Assembly: GCF_014697475.1 (NCBI RefSeq) | Contig: NZ_JACJRV010000001.1 | Coordinates: 310,001 to 374,000, forward strand | Direction: 5' to 3' | DNA length: 64,000 nucleotides | Origin: Nostoc sp. FACHB-152 | GTDB lineage: Bacteria; Cyanobacteriota; Cyanobacteriia; Cyanobacteriales; Nostocaceae | Part shown: positions 1,086 to 31,681 of the stretch, one piece after another | How the letters are laid out: every line of letters begins with the position of its first letter | Numbering within the stretch: the stretch's first letter is position 1 | Notes under the pieces: model-generated | Seen by the model: only the letters and a program-made list of their open reading frames with translations | The model's database searches: none | What the model was told of the DNA's origin: nothing | Translations under genes and position numbers: made by a program

Positions 1086-2921
1086 TCATTGACCTAATAT
1101 AACTTCTCGGTAACTACCTGATTTAAGAATTTGCCCCTGCTCAAGCTGATAGATCTGATCACAATGCTCGATTGTAGAAAGACGATGAGCAATAATAATG
1201 ATTGTTTTACTTCTAGCTAAAGCTTTTGTTGCTTCAGTTATAAGCTGCTCTGTTTCATTATCAAGTGCAGCAGTTGCTTCATCAAAAACCAAAATTTCTC
1301 GTTCATGATATATGGCACGAGCAATTCCTACACGCTGCCTTTGTCCACCTGATAGAAGAACCCCACGCTCGCCCAAAACTGTTTTAACCCCATCTGAAAG
1401 CTGGCTCACTACCTCACTTAACTGAGCAACTTCAATTGAATGTTTCAGCCTATCTTGGTCAATTAAGTCTTCAGGAACACCAAACGCAATATTTTTTTCT
1501 AAGGTGTCATCTGTTAAGAAAATGGACTGAGGTACGTAGCCTATCATATTCTGCCACGCACGTATGTTCGAGTAAATGGAGATCCCATCAACTTTTATAT
1601 CTCCAGTTTGGGGAATGAAAAGTCCCAAAAGAATATCTACTAAAGTTGTCTTTCCAGCACCAGATTTGCCAATTAATCCAATAGATTGGCCTTTTTGAAT
1701 TGAGAAGGAAATTTTATCTAGGGCTTTCCGTGACATTTGAGGATATTGAAAAGTCACATTATCCACATAGATCTCTTTTTTAAAGCTGATGATTTCTGCA
1801 TCCACTCTAGACTTCAACAGGCTTGATGATTTTTCAGAATCATGCTCTGAAGAGTAAAATTCTCTAGATTCTATTTTCTTAAAATCTTCTATCTCTTTGA
1901 AATCAAAGAACAATTTATCGATTGCAAAAGCATTTGCCCTAACTGTGCTAACGTTACCAAGCAAATTACTTACAGCGGGGAGAAGCCGAATTGAGGCAAG
2001 AGAGAAAATTCCTAAAACTACAGTTAAGTTTTTTTCTTCGCCGCGGTTAAATTCAATAAATAAAAGTGTAAACCCAATTAAGAAACTAATCATAAATGCT
2101 TCAATGACAAAACGCGGGAGATTCCCATAACTGTCGGCTAAAACCTTATTTGTAGCGTACTTTCTTACCTGTGCATCCATCTGATTTATAAAGTAGCCCT
2201 CGCATCCTATGACACGAGTTTCTTTAAATCCACCCAATCCATGATTGAGGATGCGAATCATTTCCGCAGACGCATCCCAGCCCTGGATACCCCAGCGAGC
2301 CAATCGATCCTTTATCAGCCTAAGCAATCCGGCTATAATGAGAAAAAGGACTCCAATAAATATCAGGGCTATCGTACTAGTTTTCACCAGCAACAGGAGC
2401 AACGCAAGAATAACAATAGTATTAGATACAGATGTCAAAATAGCCATTACTACACCAATACAAAAATTATCTGTAGTTGTAGTAATATTTTGGATAAGTG
2501 TGGAAGAATTAGCTCTAAGGTGAAAACTATATGGTGCTTCCAGGTAAGCCTTTAAAAGGTTGTAGGATAGCTTGCCTTTTAATCTATAACCAAAGTTAAA
2601 GACTTCTTTTTGTGCAGAAAATGCACAAAACGTCTTTATATAAAAGATTAGAGTTACTACAAAGCCAATAAAAACAAGGAACTTGTACTTATCAGAGAAA
2701 CCAAGATGCTCATAAACGAGATTTAGCCAGTAATTATTCAAGACTGAATCTGGATTGGTGGCTGTGACTATAAAGGGTCCAACCATACCAGTCCCAAAGA
2801 CTTCCAAAGCGGAGATAAATAAAAACAGGCAAATCATCGCAACTAGCCTTCTATAACTTCCCTTTGTTAGGTATAAAAATTTAGATATAAATTTAGTCAG
2901 ATTGGTCATTAAATTATCCAT
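1086..2921 (-). CDS. ABC exporter, fused permease and ATPase (MsbA/PglK-like)
   Basis: A 611-residue half-transporter. Residues 1-330 hold about six membrane segments. The nucleotide-binding domain (about 385-611) has Walker A GKSGAGKTT (about 415), Q-loop GYVPQS, signature LSGGQRQRVGIARAI (about 520), Walker B ILVFDEATAALD and the H-loop IIIAHRLST. This is the type IV exporter architecture of lipid, oligosaccharide-lipid and peptide flippases; it would act as a homodimer in the plasma membrane. Its place among glycosyltransferases suggests export of a lipid-linked glycan or polysaccharide precursor, which is inference. The start at 2921 places the first membrane helix about 25 residues in, as usual. 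Confidence 0.9.
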   Translation of the reverse strand: MDNLMTNLTKFISKFLYLTKGSYRRLVAMICLFLFISALEVFGTGMVGPFIVTATNPDSVLNNYWLNLVYEHLGFSDKYKFLVFIGFVVTLIFYIKTFCAFSAQKEVFNFGYRLKGKLSYNLLKAYLEAPYSFHLRANSSTLIQNITTTTDNFCIGVVMAILTSVSNTIVILALLLLLVKTSTIALIFIGVLFLIIAGLLRLIKDRLARWGIQGWDASAEMIRILNHGLGGFKETRVIGCEGYFINQMDAQVRKYATNKVLADSYGNLPRFVIEAFMISFLIGFTLLFIEFNRGEEKNLTVVLGIFSLASIRLLPAVSNLLGNVSTVRANAFAIDKLFFDFKEIEDFKKIESREFYSSEHDSEKSSSLLKSRVDAEIISFKKEIYVDNVTFQYPQMSRKALDKISFSIQKGQSIGLIGKSGAGKTTLVDILLGLFIPQTGDIKVDGISIYSNIRAWQNMIGYVPQSIFLTDDTLEKNIAFGVPEDLIDQDRLKHSIEVAQLSEVVSQLSDGVKTVLGERGVLLSGGQRQRVGIARAIYHEREILVFDEATAALDNETEQLITEATKALARSKTIIIIAHRLSTIEHCDQIYQLEQGQILKSGSYREVILGQ

Positions 2922-26501: not shown

Positions 26502-26735
26502 ATGAGCATCACAGTTACAGGCACTATCGAACGTCGTGATATTGGTATGGGCGCATGGGCTTTAGTCGCAGATGACGGCAAAACCTACGAAATTCTCAAA
26601 GGTGCAGATAAAAGCTTGCTCAAAGCTGGACAGAAAGCCAAAGTTACAGGACAGGTGCGTGAAGATGTCATGACAATAGCAATGATTGGCCCAGCCTTAG
26701 AAGTAAAATCTTTTGAAGTAGTTAATTCTGATTAG
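26502..26735 (+). CDS. Small OB-fold-like protein
   Basis: 77 residues, MSITVTGTIERRDIGMGAWA. Short β-rich sequence (ITVTGTIERR, WALVADDGKTYEIL, KAKVTGQVRED, KSFEVVN) suggests a small OB-fold barrel. No signal peptide; function unknown. Its last 14 bp overlap the end of the convergent thioredoxin-like gene, which supports both ends as genuine. Confidence 0.75.
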   Translation: MSITVTGTIERRDIGMGAWALVADDGKTYEILKGADKSLLKAGQKAKVTGQVREDVMTIAMIGPALEVKSFEVVNSD

Positions 26736-27045
26736 CGGTAGGATTTAAAACTGCTTGCAGACGACTTCTAAATTCACCTTTGGGATGTCCGCCTTTGACC
26801 TCACCAATAATCTGAAATTCGCCTTCTGGAGAATCACAAATAATATAAGTAGGCCATCCCATATCTGATTTATCTGGATACTGAGTCAGCAGAATTTTAC
26901 GATATTTTCGATAGGTAGCTGTGTCTTGCATTTTGACATCAATAAACTGCAAACCCAATTCTTCAGCTACTTTTTGGTCATAAAAAGACATTTTATGGCA
27001 GATGCCGCACTCTTCTGAAGAGAATTTAATAACTGCTAAACTCAT
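26722..27045 (-). CDS. Thioredoxin-like protein
   Basis: 107 residues with thioredoxin-fold features: LAVIKFSSEECGICHKMS carries the CxxC pair (Cys-Gly-Ile-Cys), followed by a conserved-looking FIDVKMQD strand and WPTYII with the cis-Pro (about residue 66). Likely cytosolic thiol-disulfide oxidoreductase or redox sensor. Partner unknown. Converges with the OB-fold-like gene. Confidence 0.85.
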   Translation of the reverse strand: MSLAVIKFSSEECGICHKMSFYDQKVAEELGLQFIDVKMQDTATYRKYRKILLTQYPDKSDMGWPTYIICDSPEGEFQIIGEVKGGHPKGEFRSRLQAVLNPTANQN

Positions 27046-27655: not shown

Positions 27656-27684
27656 GTTCCGAGAGACAAACGCAAGAGATTTTT

Positions 27685-27757
27685 CAAAAAATTCCCAAAT
27701 AGGTGTTAGCCATTCAGGGAAGTTAAGTATCAGGGTGGATCTACCAATTAATTGTTC
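27685..27757 (+). ncRNA. nsiR1: NsiR1-type unit A, degenerate
   Basis: Keeps GTGTTAGCCATTCAGGGAAGTTA and CAGGGTGGATCTACCAATTAATTGTT. The upstream box is TCCGAG (27659-27664) rather than TCCGGA, so promoter activity is doubtful. Confidence 0.5.
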
Positions 27758-27810
27758 CAAATTAGAGGAAAGTTCTCCGGAACAATTTTGCAAAGGCCGT
27801 TTGTTGTTTG

Positions 27811-27880
27811 AAATTCAAGAATAGAGGTGACTACTAAGCCAGAAAGTTAGTTATCTTAGTACATCTACCAATAATCTGTT
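27811..27880 (+). ncRNA. nsiR1: NsiR1-type unit B, highly degenerate
   Basis: TCCGGA at 27776-27781 is intact, but the body keeps only AGTTAGTTATC and ACATCTACCAAT; the C-rich/G-rich hairpin is lost. Confidence 0.4.
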
Positions 27881-27943
27881 TCTAGGATTCTGAAGTATGT
27901 TCCGGACAAAAATGCCAAAAACTGATATGCTGTTAAACCAGCA

Positions 27944-27991
27944 TAAAAAAATCTACCAGTTATGGCCAGTACATAGGGGAGTTATTTATTA
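27944..27991 (+). ncRNA. nsiR1: NsiR1-type unit C, 3'-truncated
   Basis: TCCGGA at 27901-27906; body begins AAAAAAATCTACCAG, keeps AGGGGAGTTATTTAT, then changes at 27991 into unrelated sequence (AGGGCGTGTCGATT), so the CAGGGTGCATCTACC part is missing. Confidence 0.5.
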
Positions 27992-28068
27992 GGGCGTGTC
28001 GATTAAATATTAATTTATTCGAGAAGTAATCAATATCTTCCGAATAAAAGGTTGCTATTTACCAAGCA

Positions 28069-28140
28069 CAAAAAAATCTCCCAGTGGTGGCAGTTTACTA
28101 GGAGATTTATTTACCAGGGTGGATTAACTAATATTATTTT
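28069..28140 (+). ncRNA. nsiR1: NsiR1-type unit D, divergent but structured
   Basis: Box TCCGAA at 28039-28044. Hairpin arms changed together: AAATCTCCCAG pairs with CTAGGAGATTT, so stem pairing is retained by compensating changes. Confidence 0.5.
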
Positions 28141-28200
28141 GTTATACAATCAAGCAACATTTACCAGATACAGCGTTTTTCGGTTGCGTGCAGTACAAGT

Positions 28201-28236
28201 AGATAGGGGCGAGAGGCTAGGGGTTAGAGGCTAGAG
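28201..28236. repeat. STRR tract inside the NsiR1 array
   Basis: AGGGGCGAGAGGCTAGGGGT units separate units D and E and replace the promoter box expected before unit E. Confidence 0.55.
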
Positions 28237-28295
28237 GAATTTACCTCATTAGGATGAAAACTGCTGTAAATTTGCATCGAAAAGTTATCATCTAC

Positions 28296-28366
28296 AAAAA
28301 AATCCCCAGCCAGTGTTAGCCAGCGAGGGGAGTTAGTTATCAGGGTGCATCTACCAATTAATTGTT
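28296..28366 (+). ncRNA. nsiR1: NsiR1-type unit E, no TCCGGA box
   Basis: The body is nearly identical to units F and G, but the upstream -35 region is replaced by the STRR-adjacent sequence. The -10-like TTATCATCTAC is kept. Confidence 0.6.
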
Positions 28367-28421
28367 CTGCCACTAAACTGCATCTCCCGGAACAATTGAC
28401 ATCGAGAAGTTATCATCTACC

Positions 28422-28495
28422 AAAAAAAATCCCCCAGCCAGTGTTAGCCAGCGAGGGGAGTTAGTTATCAGGGTGCATCTACCAATTAATTGTTC
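28422..28495 (+). ncRNA. nsiR1: NsiR1-type unit F
   Basis: Full unit. Box is CCCGGA (28386-28391) instead of TCCGGA. Nearly identical to unit G including the promoter, showing a recent unit duplication. Confidence 0.7.
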
Positions 28496-28549
28496 TGCCA
28501 CTAAACTGCATCTCCCGGAACAATTGACATCGAGAAGTTATCATCTACC

Positions 28550-28620
28550 AAAAAAAATCCCCCAGCCAGTGTTAGCCAGCGAGGGGAGTTAGTTATCAGG
28601 GTGCATCTACCAATTAGTTT
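28550..28620 (+). ncRNA. nsiR1: NsiR1-type unit G
   Basis: Full body; box CCCGGA at 28514-28519. After CATCTACCAATTA the sequence departs from the unit F pattern. Confidence 0.7.
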
Positions 28621-28680
28621 TTCCACAACTTATTTTTCCTTCCGGATAAAACTCGCTTCGATTCTGTTTGCTATCTACTC

Positions 28681-28752
28681 AAAAAAATCCCCCAGCCAGT
28701 GTCAGCCAGCTAGGGGAGTTATTTATCAGGGTGCATCTACCAATTAACTGTT
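28681..28752 (+). ncRNA. nsiR1: NsiR1-type unit H
   Basis: Perfect TCCGGA at 28641-28646, TATCTACT -10-like, body starting with an A7 tract about 35 bp after the box. CCCC/GGGG hairpin kept. Confidence 0.75.
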
Positions 28753-28807
28753 CTCGATGCGATCGCTCTGTTCCGGATAAAATTCTTATAATTGTGGCTA
28801 TCAGCCC

Positions 28808-28880
28808 AAAAAAAAATCCCCAGCTGGTGGCAGCCAGCCAGGGAAGTTAGTTATCAGGGTGCATCTACCAATTAACTGTT
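28808..28880 (+). ncRNA. nsiR1: NsiR1-type unit I
   Basis: TCCGGA at 28772-28777. Hairpin arms are altered (CAGCTGGTGGCAGCCAGC), giving a stronger CTGG/CCAG stem. The 3' part is identical to unit H's including a HIP1 site. Confidence 0.75.
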
Positions 28881-28937
28881 CTCGATGCGATCGCTCTGTT
28901 CCGGATAAAAGCTCGTAATATGATGGTTATTGAGCAT

Positions 28938-29009
28938 AAAAAATCCCCCAGCAGGCATTAGCCAGCTAGGGGAATTAAAGATCAAGGTGCATCTACCAAT
29001 AAAGTGTTC
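28938..29009 (+). ncRNA. nsiR1: NsiR1-type unit J
   Basis: TCCGGA at 28900-28905; CCCCCAGC...GCTAGGGG gives a paired stem; tail CAAGGTGCATCTACCAAT. Last full unit before hetF. Confidence 0.7.
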
Positions 29010-29027
29010 TAGGCAGATGCTCACTAA

Positions 29028-29033
29028 TCCGGA
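29028..29033 (+). promoter_or_regulatory. hetF-proximal TCCGGA (DIF-type) box
   Basis: TCCGGA 143 bp before the hetF start, followed by a vestigial unit (GGGATGCATCTA at 29088-29099). It would start transcription near 29065, giving a hetF leader of about 110 nt with a hairpin at 29127-29146. Inferred from the array pattern. Confidence 0.55.
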
Positions 29034-29126
29034 TAAAGTGATAAAGGCTAGAGATTAAAACAACTTCTTTGAGAAACATTCAGTAGCGGGATGCATCTAA
29101 GCTATCAGAAAGAGCGAAAAATCGAC

Positions 29127-29176: not shown

Positions 29177-31681
29177 GTGACCCAGGAATTTCACATTTCT
29201 GTGACTCCAGTAGGGCAGAATGACTACTTGGTGCGGACGGAACAGGTCGCGCCTGGAGTGCCTTTGGCAGAAGAACTGGTGACTTGGCCTGTAGCTGATT
29301 GGTTGGCGGCGGCTGGACATCTGATGAATGACCCTTTAAGGTCGGTATTACAAGGTGATGCGTTAACGCAGTCCGCCGTAGGCATTGCTAGAAATTCTGT
29401 AAACTTGGTGGCATTAGGTCAGCAATTTTATAACGCTCTGTTTCAAGGTACTCTCAGAGATAGTTGGATTACTGCCCAAGGTATTGCTCAAAACCATCAA
29501 CAAGTGCTACGCCTGAGATTGGGTCTCAAGGATAATAGGTTAGCACGTCTGCCGTGGGAAGTTATGCACGCAGGCGATCGCCCTTTAGCAACAGGCCCCT
29601 ATGTGGCTTTTTCGCGCTACCAAAGCGGCCTACTAACTACCTCACGCTTGCCATCCAGGAACGTACCACAGCTGCCAGACGATGGGATAGTACGAGTTTT
29701 AATGGTGCTGGCTTCTCCTACTGACCAAACACGGCTGGGTTTGTTGAAACAAGAAGCCTTAAGACTACAAGCAGAACTGCGCCGTAATTTATCATCTGAC
29801 AACAATCAATTACCAGAAATTGAACTGACTCTCTTAGACCAACCAGGACGGGAAGAATTAACCCAAGCCCTAGAACAAGGTAGATACGAAGTTCTGCATT
29901 ACTCAGGGCATAGTAATTTAGGGGTAAATGGGGGCGAAATTTATCTTGTCAGTAACAGAACTGGCTTGACAGAAACTCTAAGTGGTGACGACTTAGCCGG
30001 TCTACTCGTCAATAATAATATCCAAATGGCTGTGTTTAACTCCTGCTGGGGAGCATACACAGCGACATCCAACACTACAGAAGAAACAGGCGAACGCAAC
30101 CTCACAGAAAGTTTAGTCAGACGCGGGATTAAATGTGTTTTGGCGATGTCAGAACGTATCCCTGATGAAGTAGCACTGACACTCACACAACTTTTGTATC
30201 GCAACCTCAGCCAAGGATACCCTGTGGATTTGTGTGTGAGTCGAGTTCGTCAGGGATTAATTTCTGCTTACGGTTCGCACCAAACTTATTGGGCGTTGCC
30301 AATTTTGTATTTGCAGCCAGAGTTTGATGGTTTTCTCAGTCCAGAAATTTCGACCTCTACTAGTACAGAATCACTGAATGAGTATAGCCGGAGTGTGAAG
30401 GCTACTTCTATCACAGCATACTCAGCGATCGCAGATGATACGCAGATGTCTTTACCTATTGAAGAGATGATCCCACCAGGTTTAGACAATGACGCGTCTG
30501 ACTTAGATTGGTTAGGGGAAGAAACTTGGGGCGATTTAGTTGATGAAATTGAATATGATGATCCCACCTATGCAGAAGATTCGGCAATAGTTTCAGACTT
30601 GTTTCGTCAGATAGATCAGCAAAAAACCAGCAATCATCCTCCCATATTAGAAGAACCGCCTTTAGGTAACAAAGAAAGTAATTTGGCTGCAAGACAGAAT
30701 GCAGGAAAAGAAAGTCCCTTAGATAAAGACAGTTTAGGACGAAATATCGGAGAAACACCCAGGGAAACTCCTGGTAATGACCAACAACAGTCGCCCAATT
30801 CTGATTTCGCCTCAATGCCAACAGCCCAACCCCAATTTATCTCTCGCCGTCATCGACGGCAAATTTTGGGTATTGTTGGCGCAGGTGCGATCGCTACTGT
30901 CATCGGGTTAGGATGGTGGTGGCAAAATCGACGCATATTCACCTTTTCAGATATCCCGCAAATCCCTACGGAACAAGCTATATCTAGCAAAAGTAGTCCC
31001 AAAATTAACTTGCAGACTAGTCCGACAGCAATTGTTACTAACACTGCTACAGAAAGATTAAGCCAAGGTGATTTACAAGCGGGACTAGTTGCTGTGGAAG
31101 AATTATTAGACCGTGGCGCATTGACATCTGCTCAAACTGCCTTAAAATTAATTCCCCAAAAGCAAGGTAATGAACCGTCAGCCAACTTTATCAAAGGGCG
31201 ATTAGCTTGGCAGTTAATCCAAACAGGAGACAAGACATATAGCATTGATGATGTTCGCCGCTTCTGGGAAATTGCTGTCAAAGCGCAACCAGATTCGCTT
31301 TTGTATAGCAACGCTTTAGGGTTTGCTTACTACGCAGAAAATAATGTGAATCGGGCTAATGATTCTTGGTTTAAGGCTTTAAATTTAGCTCTCAACCAGC
31401 AAAGTTCAAATTCTAACGCTGCAATAGCAACCCAACCTCCCCCAATTCCTCATGATGCCTTGACTCCCTATGCTGGTTTAGCTCTTGGTTTGTATAAATC
31501 TGCCCGCAATCAACCTGCTGCGAAACAAACCCAGTATATGAATGAAGCGATTAAGTTACGCACCCTAGTCATCAATGAAGACCCAGTAAACTTTCAGGTA
31601 AATAAATTGAGTAATAATTGGCTATGGACAGAAAAAGCCATTACTGATTGGCGATCGCTTCTAGAGCAAAAAGCTGAATAA
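29177..31681 (+). CDS. hetF: HetF, CHAT-domain protease of heterocyst patterning
   Basis: 834 residues from GTG at 29177 (AGGAGG at 29156-29161). Residues about 90-385 form a CHAT (caspase-like) domain: RLPWEVMHAGDRPLA, then EVLHYSGHSN with His241/His245 and AVFNSCWGAY with Cys290 as the dyad, ending KCVLAMSERIPDEVALTLT. A long acidic, disordered linker follows, then a membrane helix (about 556-580, ILGIVGAGAIATVIGLGWWW) and a TPR-like C-terminal region (about 620-834). HetF is needed for heterocyst differentiation and for turnover of PatA/HetR in Anabaena (established). The NsiR1 array directly upstream supports the assignment. Confidence 0.9.
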   Translation: MTQEFHISVTPVGQNDYLVRTEQVAPGVPLAEELVTWPVADWLAAAGHLMNDPLRSVLQGDALTQSAVGIARNSVNLVALGQQFYNALFQGTLRDSWITAQGIAQNHQQVLRLRLGLKDNRLARLPWEVMHAGDRPLATGPYVAFSRYQSGLLTTSRLPSRNVPQLPDDGIVRVLMVLASPTDQTRLGLLKQEALRLQAELRRNLSSDNNQLPEIELTLLDQPGREELTQALEQGRYEVLHYSGHSNLGVNGGEIYLVSNRTGLTETLSGDDLAGLLVNNNIQMAVFNSCWGAYTATSNTTEETGERNLTESLVRRGIKCVLAMSERIPDEVALTLTQLLYRNLSQGYPVDLCVSRVRQGLISAYGSHQTYWALPILYLQPEFDGFLSPEISTSTSTESLNEYSRSVKATSITAYSAIADDTQMSLPIEEMIPPGLDNDASDLDWLGEETWGDLVDEIEYDDPTYAEDSAIVSDLFRQIDQQKTSNHPPILEEPPLGNKESNLAARQNAGKESPLDKDSLGRNIGETPRETPGNDQQQSPNSDFASMPTAQPQFISRRHRRQILGIVGAGAIATVIGLGWWWQNRRIFTFSDIPQIPTEQAISSKSSPKINLQTSPTAIVTNTATERLSQGDLQAGLVAVEELLDRGALTSAQTALKLIPQKQGNEPSANFIKGRLAWQLIQTGDKTYSIDDVRRFWEIAVKAQPDSLLYSNALGFAYYAENNVNRANDSWFKALNLALNQQSSNSNAAIATQPPPIPHDALTPYAGLALGLYKSARNQPAAKQTQYMNEAIKLRTLVINEDPVNFQVNKLSNNWLWTEKAITDWRSLLEQKAE

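Follow-up and report, generated by a model that had tools for sequence, protein, structure and literature searches.

The small RNA NsiR1 has a part in controlling the development of nitrogen-fixing cells in cyanobacteria. In Nostoc/Anabaena sp. PCC 7120, it is encoded as tandem ~60-nucleotide (nt) units directed against the gene hetF, which are read from DIF1 promoters and of which the proximal copy is antisense to the hetF leader, as described in parts of two published accounts (PMC9045159, PMC8406250). The same parts cover the place and orientation of NsiR1 arrays, the likeness of inner and divergence of outer copies, and the repression of hetF and alr3234. PCC 7120 has 12 units, and an excerpt of PMC3610870 gives 12 repeats upstream of hetF in Nodularia spumigena CCY9414, which agrees with the 12 units that we scanned in Nodularia genome G298. 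A portion of PMC8400943 lists RNA162, a 57-nt NsiR1-like RNA, as one annotated RNA of the non-heterocystous strain Limnospira indica PCC 8005. Here we describe an NsiR1 array upstream of hetF in a 64,000-nt stretch of the Nostoc sp. FACHB-152 genome ("the window"; contig NZ_JACJRV010000001.1, positions 310,001 to 374,000, forward strand), together with its relatives in other genomes. We are confident, short of certainty, that this is a two-tier array within a wider family of RNAs that share their 5' sequence.

The window holds ten recognisable copies (A to J) of one repeat at 27.68-29.03 kb, spaced by ~128 nt. Seven of them match NsiR1 (Rfam RF02399) on the minus strand with 55.5-77.3 bits against a gathering score of 39, and their E-values of 1e-9 to 4e-15 mean that the matches are not due to chance. 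Unit D, also on the minus strand, falls under the 39-bit gathering score with 36.4 bits, and B and C were detected solely as repeats, with no Rfam match. The next gene is hetF, on the plus strand at 29177-31681 (CHAT domain PF12770; NCBIfam equivalog CellDiv_HetF, NF045509, 1431.7 bits), and the tandem array lies upstream of it on the opposite strand. Because the units are on the minus strand, transcription would run away from hetF, with the promoter to the right of each unit in window coordinates. Transcription of NsiR1 is characteristically heterocyst-specific and dependent on HetR, and a HetR gene was found in the same genome. The locus is very probably an NsiR1 array of individually promoted ~60-nt RNAs, each with its own terminator, that run against hetF. 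An earlier reading, made from the sequence alone, had recognised the NsiR1 locus and about ten units upstream of hetF, and both claims hold; it gave no strand. Compared with PCC 7120, fewer units are intact (seven, with one decayed unit and two remnants), and no alr3234-type HetP gene was found in the genome. The NsiR1 family, its linkage to hetF and the unevenness of its copies are already known.

The hetF-proximal copy differs from the others at most loci of the family. We compared hetF-upstream DNA from 54 loci of family f1 (which, from the names, we take to be Nostocaceae), some of them picked for detached arrays. Fifty loci hold at least one scanned unit; L041, L043, L046 and L055, with no unit upstream of hetF, are outside this count. 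The scan accepted up to four mismatches in 18 nt and demanded a strict U-run, and it misses unit D of the window and the proximal units of L076, L091, L092 and L094. The type-1 core CACCTTGATC is present in the scanned unit nearest hetF at 42 of 50 loci and in 0 of 267 other scanned units. A recheck of the remaining eight loci recovered the exact core in L076, where it lies 188 nt from the HetF codon, and CACCTTAATC, one base off, at 194-202 nt in L091, L092 and L094, the L094 copy being decayed. Proximal units thus total 43 of 50 with the exact core, three that are one base off and four true exceptions, among them Nodularia (G298), where the proximal unit occupies the same place but has a type-2 core. 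The usual inner (type-2) core, CACCCTGATA, occurs in 246 of 263 units counted as distal.

Promoter, position and similarity follow the same division. Exact TCCGGA accompanies 41 of 42 scanned type-1 units versus 201 of 271 others, and 29 of the 42 start 186-192 nt from the HetF EFH codon. Type-1 units are more alike between genomes (0.868) than each is to its own array (0.791), and among scanned units the least similar one sits at the proximal end in 27 of 40 arrays and at the distal end in three. Units are more alike within a genome than between genomes in 44 of 47 arrays, identical copies are present in 25 of 47, and inner-unit identity is 0.894 within arrays versus 0.839 between them. The two RNA types stay apart while the inner copies homogenise, and the hetF-proximal unit is, as judged from its core, a separate, long-kept subtype across the family. 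At 20 loci of other families we found one scanned unit in 14, two in one and none in five; the HetF N-terminus could be placed at 11 of the unit-bearing loci, and there the units are antisense without exception. One unit, likewise antisense, lies upstream of hetF in G014, which shares 3,600 identical nt with a Kastovskya adunca record.

To place both types in a wider setting, 185 genomes were drawn evenly from the order, and HetR (PF03574) was found in 107 of the 185. The 14-mer GTAGATGCACCCTG is present in 131 of the 185 genomes (785 matches; the reversed control pattern gave one match in one genome), and in 101 genomes an exact TCCGGA box precedes it. Where the 14-mer is present, the box accompanies it in 98 of 106 genomes that encode HetR versus 3 of 25 that do not. 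Counted by match, the boxed share is 344 of 731 where HetR is encoded and 5 of 54 elsewhere. Genomes that have the 14-mer but neither box nor HetR turn up repeatedly in families f8, f18 and f32, with one more in f9. Both types, together with the sibling RNAs described below, appear to make up one wider small-RNA family sharing the 5' sequence GGUAGAUGCACCyUGRU. This is likely an ancient HetR-linked RNA family that expanded beside hetF in heterocyst formers.

Two further RF02399 matches occur in the window's genome, both on one other contig. The first, of 51 nt (G000:C46:1051-1101, 49.6 bits, over the cut-off of 39), lies between lgt and cobM; it does not belong to an array upstream of hetF and is classed as NsiR1-like, not as NsiR1. 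The same RNA is found in 15 of 15 family-f1 genomes examined, that of the window included, and at six loci outside family f1, at one of which only lgt was located. TCCGGA stands upstream of 20 of the 21 copies found with the Rfam model beside lgt and/or cobM; the remaining copy, in G045, has TGCGGA instead, and HetR was not matched in that genome. The sibling has its own sequence, CCCTGGTT, followed mostly by AAGCCC. Named genomes were searched with a pattern made of TCCGGAT and the sibling 5' end, and conservation of the box was judged only from copies found without that pattern. Among the matches listed, there are at least 116 loci with 123 sites; 117 of the 123 sites (111 of 116 loci) are beside lgt and/or cobM, which, where near, always lie on the strand opposite to the sibling (101 of 101 and 111 of 111), and 113 of 116 loci have a single site. 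Multiplied siblings occur in L225 (Coleofasciculus, five in tandem), L239 (Lyngbya, three) and L142 (Limnofasciculus, two). The five copies in L225 (987-1400; Coleofasciculus sp. LEGE 07092) repeat with a 98-nt period and form an independent small array.

Sibling records come from Nostoc, Anabaena, Calothrix and Fischerella, and also from Planktothrix, Tychonema, Microcoleus, Coleofasciculus, Laspinema, Oscillatoria, Lyngbya, Kastovskya and Limnofasciculus, all of the latter presumably non-heterocystous. NCBI taxonomy places Planktothrix in Oscillatoriales and Kastovskya in Coleofasciculales. Full-text searches of one open-access library turned up no description of the lgt-cobM sibling, of a type-1 core common to the family or of the co-occurrence with HetR. 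The siblings are within reach of the Rfam model and so probably already appear in Rfam, without comment. According to part of PMC4734099, one pipeline required at least 45 nt, the U-run not counted; the commonest sibling measures 43 nt to the hairpin end, so that pipeline may have missed it.

The second match in the window's genome (G000:C46:7160-7216, L016) is 57 nt long, reaches 38.1 bits, below the cut-off, and reads TAGTAGATGCACC..., with TTCCGGAT upstream. This 57-nt type is found in L016 and L029-L033, and an exoD-like gene is nearby in four of the six loci. Separately, two genomes of family f15 carry large TCCGGA-boxed NsiR1-like arrays (G160:C1:1196765-1199183 and G084:C2:1357918-1361740), with a total of 27 (G160) and 19 (G084) boxed matches per genome, and most of the listed places are far from hetF. 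We also considered carriage of NsiR1 on viruses and set it aside, as the five exact 17-mer matches in viral contigs are about what a rough estimate gives for chance.

The units of the window, with their boxes as read from the sequence, and the adjoining features are as follows.

28937..28998, minus strand: unit J, hetF-proximal (NsiR1.1 position), type-1 core CACCTTGATC; RF02399 67.5 bits
29028..29033, minus strand: TCCGGA (DIF1-type) box of J, 35 nt upstream of the unit
28809..28870, minus strand: unit I, type 2, CTGG/CCAG stem in the fold; RF02399 77.3 bits
28900..28905, minus strand: TCCGGA box of I
28681..28742, minus strand: unit H, type 2; RF02399 76.2 bits
28772..28777, minus strand: TCCGGA box of H
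28551..28612, minus strand: unit G, type 2, RNA equal to that of F (62/62); RF02399 69.8 bits
28641..28646, minus strand: TCCGGA box of G, 34 nt upstream
28423..28484, minus strand: unit F, type 2; RF02399 69.8 bits
28514..28519, minus strand: variant box TCCGGG of F
28295..28356, minus strand: unit E, type 2, promoter equal to that of F over 66 nt; RF02399 64.0 bits
28386..28391, minus strand: variant box TCCGGG of E
28070..28130, minus strand: unit D, decayed, terminator retained, seed and TCCGGA box gone; 36.4 bits, hairpin z -5.0
27945..28006, minus strand: unit C, remnant without seed or hairpin (repeat D4); hairpin z -0.1
27836..27870, minus strand: unit B, remnant, 5' part only, without terminator (repeat D2)
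27901..27906, minus strand: TCCGGA box upstream of remnant B
27685..27746, minus strand: unit A, distal, divergent, intact; RF02399 55.5 bits, hairpin z -3.3
27776..27781, minus strand: TCCGGA box of A
29090..29099, plus strand: GATGCATCTA in the hetF leader, matching the NsiR1 5' sequence; weak candidate trans site
29177..31681, plus strand: hetF (CHAT domain PF12770; NF045509, 1431.7 bits)
26722-27045, minus strand: conserved 107-aa gene with no Pfam or NCBIfam match, adjoining the array in several family members

Exact TCCGGA lies 34-35 nt upstream of five of the seven scanned units (A, G, H, I and J); E and F have TCCGGG, a difference from PCC 7120, and D has lost the box. Units A, G, H, I and J are complete, with TCCGGA box, 5' sequence and a terminator hairpin with U-run, and so are E and F except for the altered box. 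Decay is uneven, and different ends are lost in different units: B keeps the box and 5' part without a terminator, and D keeps the terminator without a box or good 5' end. The truncation of C that the sequence-only reading had described is confirmed, the unit ending near 27991 with its hairpin gone (z -0.1). That reading had also treated A and B as remnants, which is right for B, lacking a terminator, but not for A, which has 55.5 bits, TCCGGA 35 nt upstream, a hairpin and a U-run.

The units are also mosaics. F and G had been called almost identical, promoter included; their RNAs (62/62) and downstream stretches (30/30) are identical, but their promoters are 59% alike, and the matching promoter pair is E and F (66/66, with RNAs 97% alike). 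H and I are 84% alike in promoters and 87% in RNAs. These shared segments cross unit borders, which fits unequal crossing-over or conversion. The shuffled combinations of promoter and RNA in the window, together with the 44 of 47 arrays that are homogenised and the 25 of 47 with identical copies, support the ongoing unit turnover proposed earlier. On the minus strand, the terminators of F and G are each followed (at 28407-28422 and 28535-28550) by TGGTAGATGATAACTT, which resembles the NsiR1 5' end minus six bases (CACCCT) and may be a micro-remnant or chance.

Compensatory changes in the stems of D and I had been put forward as a sign of selection on the fold. The changes themselves are real: the hairpin of D is altered on both arms, with paired changes relative to its neighbours (z -5.0), and unit I has the full CTGG/CCAG stem. 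The stem that carries them is the Rho-independent terminator, so its retention is expected and says little about further function. Covariation was assessed on 57 units, namely the distinct units of the window, D included, and 51 of 60 randomly drawn units, nine having been excluded by hand for odd length or decay; some rows are imperfectly aligned. In this set 87.7% of cells are paired, above all 500 shuffles, and 22 cells are changed on both sides against a shuffle mean of 12.3, with 0 of 500 shuffles reaching 22. Counted as pairs, those changed on both sides number 4 versus 3.8 in shuffles (298 of 500 equal it), and a control with the partner slid by one column gave 23 both-side-changed cells versus the 22 observed. 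The 37 distinct type-1 RNAs have 16 double-change cells versus 4.9 expected, and RNAalifold on all 205 distinct non-type-1 units returned no structure.

These results support a maintained hairpin in NsiR1 units. The case for selection on the fold is weaker than was claimed: paired and double-changed cells beat the 500 shuffles, but double-changed pairs do not, and the slid control reaches 23. Covariation as proof of a functional fold was rejected, as the changes sit in the terminator and the measures disagree. So was a 5' hairpin specific to type 1, which is predicted for the consensus, but unit J of the window folds in the common way. The more informative constraint is on the 5' sequence and the distinct proximal unit, features that the sequence-only reading had not noted.

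Linkage to hetF is looser than the window alone would indicate. Four genomes have hetF without an upstream unit: G324, from the genus of the window's genome, G289, G282 and G201. All four retain a type-1 unit with a TCCGGA box at another place: in G324 and G289 it forms one end of a detached array (L036, L040), and in G282 and G201 it stands alone (L042, L045). This suggests a use for type 1 beyond antisense to an adjoining hetF. Arrays away from hetF occupy L036 2854-4216 and L037 2426-2984 (both G324), L038 2950-3995 (G330) and L042 3185-3797 (G282). Those of L037, L038 and L042 keep the window's 107-aa gene and an S8 protease as neighbours, without hetF, and there it looks as if hetF moved, not the array.

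Part of PMC8406250 places a hetF start site at -256 in PCC 7120. Because of that site, the DNA of unit J would fall within the hetF leader, and by analogy the J RNA would be a perfect antisense of the leader. On the basis of NsiR1 in PCC 7120, the TCCGGA promoters would be expected to fire in differentiating cells, and in the window's strain the J RNA would then cover the hetF leader and block translation. The type-1 RNA may additionally act in trans on other messages. The inner type-2 units, which are duplicated, converted and lost, would supply dose and trans targets with a weak effect on hetF. For the lgt-cobM sibling we expect, with low confidence, action through the shared 5' sequence under HetR/HetZ control. 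The 5' sequence may be the pairing seed of all members, and the family would be older than heterocysts.

Evidence on targets of the inner units comes mainly from alr3234. According to part of PMC9045159, NsiR1.1 and NsiR1.4 of PCC 7120 differ in its regulation, and a Tyr2 to Asp mutation in alr3234 improves NsiR1.1 pairing. From this description, the alr3234 pairing region probably covers the positions that distinguish the two types. Type-2 RNA is predicted to pair preferentially with alr3234 in G274 (-22.2 vs -15.6 kcal/mol) and G321 (-22.6 vs -14.0 kcal/mol); there is no such preference in G330, G342 and G324, and G298 has no type-1 unit for comparison. A separate, post hoc observation concerns TATCAGGG, the complement of the type-2 core CCCTGATA, which occurs in L262 (~2062-2070, minus strand) and also in L259, L260, L263, L264 and L266. 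In these 6 of 10 genomes it precedes a hetP-type gene by some hundreds of nt and sits in an A/T-rich block that is similar among them. The sequence may be part of a promoter or an NsiR1 site.

Several observations weigh against a HetR-tied family with a conserved proximal tier and inner trans targets. The proximal units of L048, L052, L053 and L075 have no type-1 core, and L059 has one decayed, terminator-less extra type-1 copy beside its proximal unit. HetR occurs without the box in G005, G022, G023, G029, G030, G049, G053 and G096, and the box without HetR in G031, G054 and G144; the Fisher P of 2e-15 for their co-occurrence is descriptive and not a probability, since the genomes are related. 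Separation of the array from hetF removes the cis-antisense arrangement, and for 11 of 13 leaders that have no unit beside them, over 5% of composition shuffles pair with type-1 RNA at least as well; only L043 and L052 pair better. We rejected GATGCATCTA in the leader as a trans site: CATCTA is found in 34 of 40 common-type hetF leaders, but other leader hexamers are equally frequent (AACATT, likewise 34 of 40), and the duplex in the window is no better than shuffles. Rejected, too, was alr3234 as a general target of inner units, with a preference in only two of six genomes; the single HetP-family match in the window's genome is not of the alr3234 type.

The array might also be merely drifting, its hairpins surviving as terminators and its proximal type being a frozen accident at the array edge, without function. 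The stem with the paired changes is indeed a terminator, one covariation measure is no higher than in shuffles, one slid control equals the observed cells, and array ends in general escape homogenisation. Yet the distal end is not set apart in the same way (least similar in 3 of 40 arrays versus 27 of 40 for the proximal end), 43 of 50 loci retain an exact type-1 core, scanned type-1 units keep their box better than other units do, and all four genomes without a hetF-adjacent unit keep type 1 elsewhere. Drift would also leave aside the different target preferences of NsiR1.1 and NsiR1.4 in PCC 7120 reported in part of PMC9045159. We consider drift alone improbable.

Slightly less probable still is that the common 5' block serves as a DNA element, at the start of transcription, and not as an RNA seed, and that the siblings are unrelated transcripts with a like promoter. 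The block does begin close to where transcription is expected to start and varies less than the remainder, and 344 of 731 matches to the 14-mer in HetR genomes stand behind exact TCCGGA. But the 14-mer persists with no box in 22 of 25 genomes that lack HetR, type-1 and type-2 units have a common promoter type yet differ inside the block, and the sibling copies inspected end in an inverted repeat and a T-run. Very improbable, in our judgement, is that the siblings are NsiR1 copies transposed out of the hetF array in heterocyst formers: G324, G330, G282 and G201 do have arrays or single type-1 units at a distance from hetF, but the lgt-cobM sibling has one syntenic place and its own sequence (CCCTGGTT, mostly followed by AAGCCC), and it is recorded in genera such as Planktothrix, Tychonema, Coleofasciculus and Laspinema, which we take to be non-heterocystous.

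The two-tier array within a wider 5'-sharing family is thus the reading that we prefer, and its broadest form we hold to be about evenly balanced: that NsiR1 is not a heterocyst invention but one branch of an order-wide family with a shared 5' seed and a TCCGGA promoter tied to HetR in filamentous cyanobacteria with and without heterocysts, in which the lgt-cobM sibling is the most constant member and the hetF copy grew, in heterocyst formers, into a two-tier array, with type 1 acting in cis and trans and the inner units providing a variable trans dose. Part of PMC11298460 predicts a DIF1 promoter for patX-hetR in a non-heterocystous strain and calls the functions of hetR and patX in heterocyst-free species a mystery. 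A HetR-linked small RNA at one conserved locus in non-heterocystous filaments would offer a direct handle on the origins of heterocyst control, in the form of a single short gene. The family-wide split between proximal and inner units, for its part, turns the observation on NsiR1.1 and NsiR1.4 in one strain into a testable rule.

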